A stretch of DNA of 64,000 nucleotides from Arenibacter sp. P308M17 (GTDB lineage: Bacteria > Bacteroidota > Bacteroidia > Flavobacteriales > Flavobacteriaceae): positions 310,001 to 374,000 of the forward strand of contig NZ_QVON01000001.1 in the NCBI RefSeq assembly GCF_003426735.1. Direction: 5' to 3'. The notes beneath the pieces were generated by a model, which was not told the origin of the DNA, searched no databases, and was given only the letters and a program-made list of their open reading frames with translations. The position numbers and the translations under genes are program-made. Numbering within the stretch: the stretch's first letter is position 1; the number at the start of each line of letters is the position of its first letter. This document shows, piece after piece, positions 11,220-36,917 of this stretch.

Positions 11220-11363
11220 AATTAAAATTTTGTCAGGGATTATTCCAAACCGTCCCATTATATCCTGTTTTCTTCATATAAAAACCCCATCCCCAAAATT
11301 GGGAATGAGGTTTGGGGCTCTCATTTCTAGGAAGAAAATTAACTTAGTAATCCTAGTGTTAAG

Positions 11364-11466
11364 TTAACCGTGAAATAACTTCTCGACTGCCCGCCCGAAC
11401 GGGCCGTTCGGTACGGGCGGGCGCTCCAAGTGACGATAGATTGTCTGGTCGAGCGGAGTCGAGACC
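11364..11466. repeat. Composite interspersed repeat (family 1 carrying a GC-rich family 2 insert)
   Basis: The outer part (TTAACC..TGAAAT.ACTTCTCGACT and AAGTGACGAT.GAT.GTCTGGTCGAGC) matches, in inverse orientation, the element at 29147-29220. Between the two halves lies a GC-rich palindromic segment (GCCCGCCCG ... CGGGCGGGC, about 11389-11423) absent from the other copy but resembling 39091-39139 and 21531-21553. The end 11447-11466 is the 20-bp palindrome-like GGTCGAGCGGAGTCGAGACC that also brackets the GIY-YIG gene. Confidence 0.8.
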
Positions 11467-11499
11467 TGAATTCAATACCATAATATCCTCAACATAACA

Positions 11500-12327
11500 C
11501 TAGGAAACAATAAAGAGACTGGCAATGGCAACGGCATCATCGCCGGACAAGGGCTCGTCATACGCCTCTGTAGAGGCTTCCATACTGAAAGCAGCGCTAT
11601 TTCCCAAAGTAGTGACATCCAAACCTCCCTGAACCACATTTTCTTCCCCGTTATATACGGCCTGGGTTGCTTCGGGCATGCCTTCCCCTCTTTCCTTATT
11701 CGTGATCCAACCTTTAAGACTTCTCAGTCTTCTAATCTCCGAAGCGTGCATGGCCTCTACGGCATGGATCTGTAAGGCTGCCGTTAAAAACGGAGATCCC
11801 AAAAGATTACCTGCCTGGCCTTTGTAGGCCCTCACACCGGTATCCTCAAAGGCCTGTGCCAATGCCAATAATTGTGCATAGGCGGTTTCCTGGCCTATTC
11901 CATTTTCATTAAATGGATCGAACGTACCGCCAACGGTAAAATCGAATGTAGGTTTTTCCACAGGGGTAACACCTGCGCCTTCCAGGCCTGCAATTAGAAA
12001 ATCCACATGTGCCTGTTCGTGCTTTGAAATCTGCATGTATACGGTTTCCGGTCTTCCGCTGGGCAGTACTCCGGACTGCAGGGCCAGGTCATAGAATTCG
12101 TCCTCCAAGTACTCTAAGGTCAACGCCAATTGAAGTGCGGCTACAGGGTCATTTCCCATATCCTGGGCAAAGGTTTTTTGGGGCATTGTAGCCAATCCAA
12201 GTGGTACCGCAGCAAGGGCCGCTTTTTTGCCCAAAATGCCCAAGGCGCCAAATATTTCTCGTCTGGACGACCTTCCGGTCAGCATCGACTGGTTTGTAAA
12301 TTCGTCTAAAAATTTTATAATGCTCAT
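11500..12327 (-). CDS. Exported ferritin-like domain protein
   Basis: 275 residues. The N-terminus has a twin-arginine-like motif SSRREIFGALG followed by a hydrophobic stretch ending PQKTFAQ, suggesting Tat export. The body is a four-helix ferritin-like domain with candidate metal ligands: LEYLEDEFYDLAL, SKHEQAHVDFLIAGL and IHAVEAMHASEIRRL carry the expected E/E-x-x-H pattern. It is the downstream member of a pair with 12349-13095 (21-bp gap), to which it is distantly similar. Such pairs are frequent in Bacteroidota. No substrate is established. Iron binding is inferred from the fold. Confidence 0.8.
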   Translation of the reverse strand: MSIIKFLDEFTNQSMLTGRSSRREIFGALGILGKKAALAAVPLGLATMPQKTFAQDMGNDPVAALQLALTLEYLEDEFYDLALQSGVLPSGRPETVYMQISKHEQAHVDFLIAGLEGAGVTPVEKPTFDFTVGGTFDPFNENGIGQETAYAQLLALAQAFEDTGVRAYKGQAGNLLGSPFLTAALQIHAVEAMHASEIRRLRSLKGWITNKERGEGMPEATQAVYNGEENVVQGGLDVTTLGNSAAFSMEASTEAYDEPLSGDDAVAIASLFIVS

Positions 12328-29105: not shown

Positions 29106-29146
29106 GAAACTCCTGTTATGTTAAGCATGTTTTGCCATTGAATTTA

Positions 29147-29220
29147 GGTCTCAACTCCGCTCGACCAGACCATCGATCGTCACTTCAAGAACCAAGTCGA
29201 GAAGTCATTTCAAGGTTAAG
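29147..29220. repeat. Family 1 interspersed repeat
   Basis: In inverse orientation this matches the outer part of the element at 11364-11466. It starts with GGTCTCAACTCCGCTCGACC, one substitution from the palindrome at 36313, 36676 and 36882, and continues with a GACGATCGATGGTCTGG-type arm and CTTCTCGACT. It lies between the CBS gene and its terminator. Confidence 0.8.
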
Positions 29221-29284
29221 ATAACACTACCTTCACTTTTCTATCTGGTGGCTGATAGCTTATAAAACAACGATACTTGATTTT

Positions 29285-36151: not shown

Positions 36152-36312
36152 GGGGTAATTTGTTTTAAGGAGGTCTCTACTTCGACCGGATATAATAGTT
36201 TTTAAACTTTGGTTGATCTTTTTATAGAGTATTATTGTTATTTACTTTATAACGTACATGGTTTGTTGGTTCGTGCCTATCTTTCGGTTTTCAAGTCATT
36301 CATGATTTGTCA

Positions 36313-36332
36313 GGTCGAGCGGAGTCGAGACC
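36313..36332. repeat. 20-bp repeat, left bracket of the GIY-YIG gene
   Basis: GGTCGAGCGGAGTCGAGACC in plus orientation, 26 bp beyond the stop of the GIY-YIG gene. The same sequence in inverse orientation lies at 36676-36695, 17 bp upstream of the start codon, so the gene sits between inverted copies. Confidence 0.9.
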
Positions 36333-36358
36333 TATTCATCTTCATTTTTGGGTTTATA

Positions 36359-36658
36359 CTATGCATGGGTGGCGTTATTACATTCCGATAAAATTTGCAG
36401 AAGATCAAACTGGCCATTTGCCAAAGCCAATTTCTTTTTTCCGCTCCATTTCTTAATTTTTTTCTCAAAATAGATGGCCTGGATAACATCATTGAATTCC
36501 TGTTGAAAGATTAATTTAACCGGTCTTCTTTTAAAGGTGAAGCAAGTCTTGTTTAATCCCATGAGGTGTTCTTGAAATCTTCTTTCGATATCATTGGTGA
36601 TACCTGTATAGGTTAATCCGTCAGAGCATAATAGTATATATACATAATAGAACTTCAT
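36359..36658 (-). CDS. Small GIY-YIG nuclease domain protein
   Basis: 99 residues from the ATG at 36656-36658. The frame extends upstream, but those codons are the palindromic repeat read as protein (CPVERSRD), so the short start is used. The GIY-YIG module is complete: KFYYVYILLCSDGLTYTGIT (GIY and YIG equivalents), the Arg of NDIERRFQEH, and a late Glu in AIYFEKKIKKW. The C-terminus continues KKLALANGQFDLLQILSE. It is close to the UPF0213/YhbQ-like stand-alone nucleases. Inverted repeat copies on both sides and a decayed second copy upstream suggest a mobile or repeat-associated gene. Confidence 0.85.
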   Translation of the reverse strand: MKFYYVYILLCSDGLTYTGITNDIERRFQEHLMGLNKTCFTFKRRPVKLIFQQEFNDVIQAIYFEKKIKKWSGKKKLALANGQFDLLQILSECNNATHA

Positions 36659-36711
36659 AATATTGAACTTAAGGAAGTCTCGACTCCGCTCGACCGGACA
36701 TTTCGATGAGT
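36644..36711. repeat. 68-bp repeat copy 1 (GIY-YIG start region plus palindrome)
   Basis: This segment covers the start codon of the GIY-YIG gene and the 20-bp palindrome at 36676-36695, followed by GGACATTTCGATGAGT. It aligns without gaps to 36850-36917 at an offset of 206 bp, with 8 differences. Confidence 0.85.
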
Positions 36712-36849
36712 AGGACTCTCTCGATAGAGCCATCGGAATCCACTCTAACGGATATTCCGACTCCAAGAATTATGGTGCTTTATTTAAATAGCACTGTTTC
36801 TAAGACCATATAGTTTTATGCAAAATAGTTATTTTAACCCAATTGTAGT

Positions 36850-36917
36850 ATAATAGAATTTCATGATATAGTACTAGAGGAGGTCTCGACTCCGCTCGAC
36901 CGGACATTTCAATGAGT
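36850..36917 (-). pseudogene. Decapitated second GIY-YIG copy with its palindrome
   Basis: Second copy of the 68-bp repeat. On the minus strand, after the palindrome (36882-36901), an ATG at 36862-36864 begins ATGAAATTCTATTAT, encoding MKFYY, the same five residues as the intact gene, then diverges and meets a stop (TAA) after about six more codons. The 3' body of the gene is gone, leaving only the start and its repeat. Confidence 0.75.

Follow-up and report, generated by a model that had tools for sequence, protein, structure and literature searches.

GIY-YIG nuclease genes between inverted tagged palindromes: a candidate partner for scattered bacterial repeats

Introduction

Why should a small nuclease gene lie between inverted copies of a palindrome that is also scattered elsewhere in the same genome? 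The question is raised by a locus in a stretch of 64,000 nucleotides of Arenibacter sp. P308M17 (contig NZ_QVON01000001.1, positions 310,001 to 374,000; hereafter the window), whose host genome comprises 26 contigs and 5.04 Mb. An earlier note, made from the window alone, had likened this locus to REP elements and their RAYT transposases, with a GIY-YIG nuclease in the transposase's position, and had proposed that the nuclease spreads or maintains the repeat.

A partner of this kind would matter for one group of repeats in particular. In the excerpts of Di Nocera 2013 (PMC3733652) used here, the CGTC REP superfamily, whose members include Rickettsia RPE-4/RPE-6 and Neisseria dRS3, is said to "apparently lack a dedicated transposase" and its repeats to be "not associated to transposase genes"; these carry a CGTC, often TGTC, tag, stems of 8–9 bp beginning with AT, loops of 4–5 and CCA tails.

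Results

The window locus

The gene (36359–36658, reverse strand) encodes 99 amino acids and is flanked by tex and metG, as named from a reading of the open reading frames. GIY-YIG is the only Pfam match of the protein at E ≤ 0.001 (PF01541, 69.3 bits, E = 3.6e-19), with no second domain, and no NCBIfam model matched it at the same threshold. Residues Y7, Y17, R27 and E65, which we take to be catalytic, as in other GIY-YIG enzymes, are invariant in 12 diverse relatives. A fold search with the AlphaFold2 model (mean pLDDT 87) placed UPF0213 nearest (E = 1.3e-4), Slx1 being a weak match (E = 0.09 or worse), so that the protein shows both the fold and the conserved Tyr, Tyr, Arg and Glu of the GIY-YIG superfamily. 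To judge by the titles of the structure matches, Slx1 acts on branched DNA. The nearest solved relatives, by sequence and by fold, are UPF0213 proteins (Bacillus YazA; 1zg2, 1ywl); unlike the units described here, Bacillus yazA lies in an operon without palindromes.

Upstream of the gene, on the reverse strand, lies a palindrome (36676–36695, one mismatch) with the outer tag TGTCC (36696–36700), the two together spanning 36676–36700; downstream, on the forward strand, lies its inverted counterpart (36313–36332) with the outer tag TGTCA (36308–36312), together spanning 36308–36332. Both palindromes thus carry TGTC on their outer side. The palindrome coordinates, the spacings of 26 bp on the stop side and 17 bp on the start side, and the two further copies at 11447–11466 and 29147–29166 are exactly as first reported, while the outer tags, an older decayed palindrome and an element with terminal inverted repeats (TIRs) around the two distant copies had gone unmentioned. 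A gapless 68-bp duplicate (36850–36917, reverse strand), also seen earlier, is 60/68 identical to its counterpart, and the similarity ends at both its edges. It had been called decapitated, which is the wrong way round: it keeps the tag, the 5' palindrome (36882–36901), the ATG and MKFYY, then runs into unrelated sequence and lacks the body of the gene, and is therefore a head-only copy. The decayed palindrome (about 36171–36192, reverse strand), recognized by eye against L164, L166, L171 and L174, is probably a relic of an older palindrome pair that is found too in gene-less relatives.

Within the window, GGTCGAGCGGAGTCGAGACC gave five matches at up to three mismatches, as against none in 100 shuffles; the copy at 11447–11466 is on the forward strand and that at 29147–29166, with one mismatch, on the reverse strand. 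The whole genome contains 30 copies of GTCGAGCGNAGTCGAGAC, the reversed control giving none.

The same layout in the genus and the family

Relatives of the gene (E ≤ 1e-10) were found in 11 of the 18 genomes of the genus, in 16 copies altogether. By eye, 15 loci of the genus fall into three subtypes, each with palindromes of its own: subtype 1, that of the window, is flanked by inverted TGTC-tagged GGTCGAGCGSAGTCGAGACC; subtype 2 mostly by GTCACTTCGAG...TATCGAGAAG, with variants in some copies; and subtype 3 by GGCTTCGACTCCGCTCAGCC and GATTGAGCGTAGTCGAAATC. Each of the five subtype-1 copies in the genus is enclosed by inverted tagged palindromes, and its upstream palindrome ends 17 bp before the start; the downstream spacing shifts with the position of the stop. 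Three of these copies belong to one genome (G015), one of them interrupted by an internal stop.

A wider set of 299 genomes included 145 with a match at E ≤ 1e-8. The matches listed for these genomes, together with the loci of the genus, yielded 123 loci at which the gene was located. Two of them, in which the reading frame did not end inside the stretch, were discarded, so that 121 were used; three tRNA-associated copies (L032–L034) and L048, which overlaps L038, had been excluded beforehand. In two of the excluded loci, both in the window's own genome, L032 (G000:C22:104202-107420) and L034 (G000:C23:260632-263844), the 5' parts of tRNA-Pro and tRNA-Arg genes are, by eye, duplicated, and the GIY-YIG gene lies between the duplicates, ahead of the intact tRNA. 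This would fit another GIY-YIG type that inserts into tRNA genes and restores them.

Palindromes of the general form NNNN-GAG..TCGA-N'N'N'N' were sought within 150 bp of each of the 121 genes. A forward palindrome stands upstream at 84 loci, a reverse one downstream at 53, and both at 40; counted by orientation, there are 94 forward and 18 reverse upstream, and 32 forward and 60 reverse downstream. Within 150 bp of the gene there are 204 of them in 36,226 bp, as against 38 in the 140,515 bp that lie more than 450 bp away. A second set, the best 80 of 488 confirmed loci, which overlaps the first (L233/L103 and L286/L141 lie on contigs of equal length), has a forward palindrome upstream at 48 of 80 loci and a reverse one downstream at 41 of 80, an early stop having placed the downstream stretch inside the gene in at least three of them (L214, L233, L236). 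The density in this set of the best 80 is 133 in 23,882 bp near the gene and 23 in 159,724 bp far from it. It includes palindrome-bearing single loci from Spirochaetales, Delongbacteria, Chlorobiota, Nostoc and Gordonia.

As REPs are intergenic, the core GAGCGNAGTCGA was counted only outside open reading frames of at least 100 aa. Over 201 loci, taken from the window's own family, other Bacteroidota and a few other phyla, 217 cores were found in 41,657 bp near the gene and 26 in 42,458 bp far from it (5.21/kb versus 0.61/kb). At least one general-form palindrome lies within 150 bp at 166 of these loci and the core at 119; 35 have neither form. The arrangement of a GIY-YIG nuclease in the manner of a RAYT, first pointed out for a single locus, is real, and it recurs in the family and in other phyla.

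One reading of this layout is that the palindromes regulate the nuclease gene, as RNA hairpins or operators, and that their dispersal is incidental. The upstream palindrome often ends about 5–25 nt before the start and could cover the ribosome site; however, the paired downstream copies, the dispersed copies and the presence or absence of the gene at palindromes are left unexplained, and we regard regulation as a very improbable account.

Arm covariation

To compare the two arms, every core within 150 bp of a gene was taken with its arms unconditioned, giving 212 instances and 168 distinct 28-mers. In 134 of the 168, all four arm bases are complementary, and 32 stem types are represented, so that the arms evidently change together; when the 3' arms were redealt 1000 times, a shuffle that ignores relatedness, a mean of 12.4 and a maximum of 23 were fully paired. 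In 138 of the 168, GTC occurs among the six bases that precede the stem. Thus, the arms covary while core and tag remain constant.

This covariation may reflect either a hairpin or a duplex palindrome. As single DNA strands, three Bacteroidota palindromes folded no better than their shuffles (z = 0.77, 0.14 and −0.12), while one alphaproteobacterial REP folded strongly (z = −4.74). For the Bacteroidota, a hairpin substrate is therefore unproven, and recognition of the duplex palindrome fits equally well.

Loci beyond the Bacteroidota

A plasmid collection was searched with an alphaproteobacterial query whose sequence is approximate; of the 33 records returned, 12 were read, chosen for diversity. 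At seven of the eight alphaproteobacterial loci among them (Azospirillum, Sinorhizobium, Rhizobium CIAT894, Novosphingobium, Shinella, Sphingobium and Neorhizobium), a CGTC palindrome stands forward upstream and a CGTC or TGTC palindrome reverse downstream; the eighth, from Rhizobium tumorigenes, has no CGTC palindrome pair. The Aeromonas locus has one palindrome, upstream; the Neisseria locus has CGTC-1 type repeats in opposite orientation; the Spirosoma locus has, by eye, a TGTCATCCC-GAG..CGA palindrome; and the Photobacterium locus has none. Among five records read of the 19 from an earlier plasmid search, palindromes were seen by eye at the Methylobacterium, Sphingomonas and Planktothrix loci and were absent from the Bacillus yazA and Cupriavidus loci. 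The palindrome-flanked gene of Planktothrix (L359) lies between an MmeI-type restriction gene and the DISARM gene drmA.

Copy number and gene subtype

If the nuclease spreads the repeat, as the earlier note proposed, the number of copies should follow the presence of the gene. The window palindrome with the GGTC stem was counted in the 299 genomes, the reversed control giving 0 in every row, and the genomes were sorted by their best match to the gene, subtype 1a being defined as E ≤ 1e-42, a cut chosen after the table had been seen. The 29 genomes with subtype 1a have on average 7.8 copies (at least one in 28, at least five in 14), as against 1.3 in the 33 genomes with subtype 1b, whose loci mostly have other stems, 0.94 in 83 genomes with other relatives and 0.47 in 154 genomes with no relative (at least one copy in 26). 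A rank test of subtype 1a against the rest, in which phylogeny is not taken into account, gives p = 5e-19, and p = 6e-7, with the same proviso, when three local copies are deducted per carrier.

The association has exceptions in both directions. Genomes with a comparable repeat load and no gene, which the earlier note had held would refute the link, do occur in part: at least five copies are present in 12 of the 270 genomes without subtype 1a, and five of these 12 have no relative at E ≤ 1e-8 (G097 with 16 copies, G173 with seven, and G114, G238 and G298 with five each). Conversely, one carrier (G196) has the gene and no copies, and four of the 29 carriers have one or none.

Closely related genomes give a weaker signal. 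In seven genera sampled twice, with one subtype-1a carrier each, the carrier has more copies in all seven, but once three local copies are removed from the carrier it leads in one, ties in five and trails in one. Where places were given, the carriers' non-local copies number one (G281), two (G293) and at least 12 (G264). In the window's genus, the three carriers (G000, G015 and G017) have 30, 20 and 4 copies in total and 3, 12 and 3 at the gene loci, while the 15 other genomes have 0–4 each. As the excess in same-genus pairs is mostly local, copies at the gene itself, the dispersed copies co-vary with the gene clearly across the family and only weakly within genera.

Dispersed copies and MITE-like elements

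The two distant copies in the window show in what company the palindrome travels. That at 11447–11466 lies within a MITE-like element of about 120–150 bp, which we call type A (11353–11503), with the TIRs CTAGTGTTAAGTTAA and, inverted, CTAGTGTTATGTTGA; by eye, that at 29147–29166 lies inside what resembles a diverged type A element. Sorted by script, 12 of the 30 genome copies are in type A elements with TIRs like CTAGTGTTAAGTTAA, which L016 and L026 resemble by eye, and nine are in type B elements of about 230 bp with ends like TTAACGTGAGTTCGA, both ends being present in four and one in five. Three of the other copies are at the gene and the remainder are apparently solitary. At least 21 of the 27 non-local copies of the window's genome thus lie inside two MITE-like families, and the nuclease need not have spread those. 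Pairs of palindromes are carried by both families (11353–11503, about 29110–29235, L005 and L027). The gene next to the type A element (11500–12327), ferritin-like by a reading of its open reading frame, has no match at E ≤ 1e-60 in the other 17 genomes of the genus.

The palindromes might accordingly be moved by another enzyme, be it an HUH/RAYT protein or the transposase of the MITE-like elements, with the GIY-YIG gene a parasite that settles in them. Besides the 12 type A and nine type B copies, this reading draws on the 12 of 270 genomes that carry at least five copies without subtype 1a, on the largely local nature of the within-genus excess, on genes that adjoin palindromes already present in relatives (see below), and on G264, where five or more of the 12 copies read (L317, L319, L320, L325, L327) have, by eye, longer shared flanks and so lie in a larger repeat there too. 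On the other side, no such palindrome lies within 1.5 kb of any of the genome's three Y1_Tnp genes, which led us to reject a RAYT as the mover; no transposase frame was seen by eye in six short stretches with type A ends, drawn from 30 loci with 40 matches, so that a transposase inside the MITE-like elements was likewise discarded, although an autonomous element elsewhere may supply one; and copy number tracks the matching subtype over the 299 genomes, even when local copies are deducted. We consider another mover unlikely, though deserving of some weight. One of the Y1 transposase genes (L036) has its own unrelated 27-nt inverted repeats, and the repeat finder gave none for another.

Elsewhere, the palindromes form gene-less units of their own. 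Among 40 stretches from six other genomes (G264, G210, G173, G245, G123, G046), at least eight gene-less pairs were recognized by eye (L321, L336–L339, L346, L350, L356), built of a tag, a GGTC palindrome, a short spacer, an inverted CCTC (once CCCC) palindrome and a tag; some gene-bearing units (L068, L070, L073) are likewise bounded by CCTC upstream and GGTC downstream. Four copies in G245 (L343, L345, L347, L348) lie in open coding frames, where they encode VERSRD or VRSSAVET, like Rickettsia palindromic elements; with three others, they make up seven hits in open coding frames over 70 loci scanned. Relative to the best solved homologue, GltX has a net four and PrmC a net two extra residues, with no clean insert in either.

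Filled and empty sites

Whether the gene enters palindromes or arrives with them can be judged from sites that are filled in one genome and empty in another, which the earlier note had urged should be sought. Such sites were found in Sphingobium and Sinorhizobium; for the copy at 11447, whose neighbouring gene has no match in the rest of the genus, none was obtained.

Seven records of Sphingobium plasmids matched the whole gene-bearing locus, from fnrL to a response-regulator gene. The three filled loci (L367, L379, which has a one-base gap in the gene, and L380) form one clade with a support of 0.997 against four gene-less loci. Under most roots, this tree is read most simply as a single gain; as it is unrooted, the gene may instead have been lost. 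Two gene-less loci (L374, L375) have a single palindrome at the site, tagged at both ends (CGTC...GACG), and that of L374 can be assembled, in 29 of 29 bases, from the left part of the left REP and the right part of the right REP, as these stand in L379 and L380. Over 8 bp, starting at the tag and running towards the loop, the position of the junction is arbitrary, so that an 8-bp target duplication would describe the site equally well; the insert measures 353–354 bp. The other two gene-less loci (L376, L377) have no such palindrome there.

In Sinorhizobium, a truncated gene lies between two REPs in S. meliloti Ak57 where K101 has one palindrome, with a degenerate left tag (CTC), which agrees in 29 of 31 bases. 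On pSymB of Ak57 (L363), a truncated copy, the 3' part only, stands beside a full one, each between REPs. In both genera, then, the gene is placed inside what gene-less relatives have as a single palindrome, although the direction of change is not fixed.

Three more sites were compared within the window's genus. Between tex and metG, the gene is present only in the window's own genome (G000) of the 18; decayed palindrome pairs occupy the site in G008, G009, G013 and G016, a single palindrome or remnants in G010, G007 and G002, and 44–52 bp without a palindrome in six relatives. At two further sites (L180/L185 and L190/L193), the flanking palindrome is already present in the gene-less relative, but the junction falls at the palindrome's edge, not at its centre.

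These sites bear on the possibility that the GIY-YIG protein acts as a transposase in the manner of a RAYT, nicking at the tag and moving single-stranded REP and gene units without need of a target REP. The layout is that of REP-RAYT units, with the tag outside and the palindromes inverted; pairs that lack the gene and have ends of this kind are scattered in other genomes, as in at least eight of the 40 stretches read by eye; and a number of REPs occur within open coding frames, where a pre-existing REP would not be expected. As the Sphingobium junction can also be set exactly at the CGTC tag, RAYT-like transposition retains a place among the explanations. Strand transfer, however, has no obvious chemistry here, since GIY-YIG enzymes hydrolyse DNA and are not known to form a covalent protein-DNA intermediate; moreover, at all five gene sites compared, a palindrome or relic pair is present in at least one gene-less relative. 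We consider a transposase of this kind unlikely.

Discussion

We favour the explanation, to which we give a probability of about 0.5, that the gene is a homing-like mobile gene with the repeat as its target and boundary. The mobile unit would be some 350–400 bp long and consist of a tag and palindrome, the GIY-YIG gene, and an inverted palindrome and tag. The nuclease would recognize its own subtype of TGTC/CGTC-tagged palindrome and cut such a REP elsewhere; since both broken halves would match the outer ends of the gene-bearing unit, repair from the gene-bearing copy would lay the gene into the REP, as for a homing endonuclease gene. The gene-less miniature pairs, which are REPIN-like, would be internal-deletion derivatives or half-products that are still substrates, and gene-less REPs could thereby multiply. 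Of this, the architecture, the covarying arms, the pairing of subtypes, the copy-number association over the family and the filled and empty sites with a junction inside a palindrome are observed, while cutting of the palindrome by the protein, copying of the gene by repair and the multiplication of gene-less REPs are inferred. Against homing stand the copies borne by MITE-like elements (at least 21 of 27), the edge junctions at L180/L185 and L190/L193, and the 35 of 201 loci without either palindrome form. The proposal that the nuclease spreads or maintains the repeat is hence partly supported: copy number does track the cognate subtype over 299 genomes, but most dispersed copies in the window's own genome may owe their spread to other elements.

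In its working the unit resembles both REP-RAYT units and homing genes, and it fits neither definition completely. With REPtrons and REPINs (GTAG REPs with a RAYT), it shares a small nuclease gene enclosed by inverted palindromes with tags, the dispersal of gene-less dimers that have similar ends, and a pairing of enzyme subtype with repeat subtype. REPtrons, however, encode an HUH tyrosine transposase, whereas the enzyme here, with GIY-YIG as its only Pfam match and UPF0213 as its nearest fold, is unrelated in fold and chemistry and has sites consistent with homing; the tag, too, is of the TGTC/CGTC type instead of GTAG, GTC being present in 138 of 168 palindromes. Nor is the unit an IS200/IS605 element, which would have a Y1 transposase and subterminal hairpins: there is no Y1 match, and the palindromes are inverted. 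Free-standing GIY-YIG homing genes of the Seg type (for background, PMC1564403) are alike in domain, in lodging at a presumed target and in having filled and empty sites, but they target a unique gene, whereas the target here would be a dispersed repeat. Furthermore, a classical homing site is split by its gene, while here two whole palindromes flank the gene at the filled site, and the 99-aa protein of the window has no second Pfam domain.

The likeness to the CGTC REP superfamily is closer on the side of the repeat. As in the superfamily, in so far as the excerpts of PMC3733652 describe it, the palindromes have an unpaired CGTC, TGTC or CCTC motif at the 5' end, form dimers and are dispersed. 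Measured against the same excerpts, the repeats of Azospirillum, Sinorhizobium, Rhizobium CIAT894, Shinella and Neorhizobium fit the superfamily in full (PMC3733652). Those of Novosphingobium and Sphingobium have its stem and loop without the AT start or the CCA tail. In the Bacteroidota palindromes, including that of the window, the stem is short and variable and surrounds a conserved GAG...TCGA core, unlike the plain 8–9 bp stem of the CGTC REPs. Where the excerpts of PMC3733652 report no transposase gene, a GIY-YIG gene recurs here as partner. The titles and opening lines of abstracts of the open-access matches listed, a scope that excludes preprints, contain no apparent report of a pairing of GIY-YIG genes with REPs.

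That the CGTC REP superfamily, relatives of Rickettsia RPE and Neisseria dRS3 included, has its dedicated enzymes in the REP-associated GIY-YIG nucleases, and that these spread by homing into the dispersed palindrome, is a tentative reading that we rate at slightly less than an even chance. Neither this reading nor the preferred explanation is put higher because the same-genus signal is mostly local and the G264 copies lie in a longer repeat.

A large class of scattered repeats in bacteria appears to lack a partner enzyme, and the GIY-YIG nuclease is a good candidate for that role. If so, these units would represent a class of mobile element in which a repeat is target, boundary and cargo at once, and the lifestyle of a REP with its nuclease would have arisen twice, once with an HUH enzyme and once with a GIY-YIG enzyme. 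Many short genes now labelled just "GIY-YIG nuclease family protein" would thereby gain a function, and a recurrent nuclease partner of CGTC-type repeats makes the question open to direct test with one small protein.
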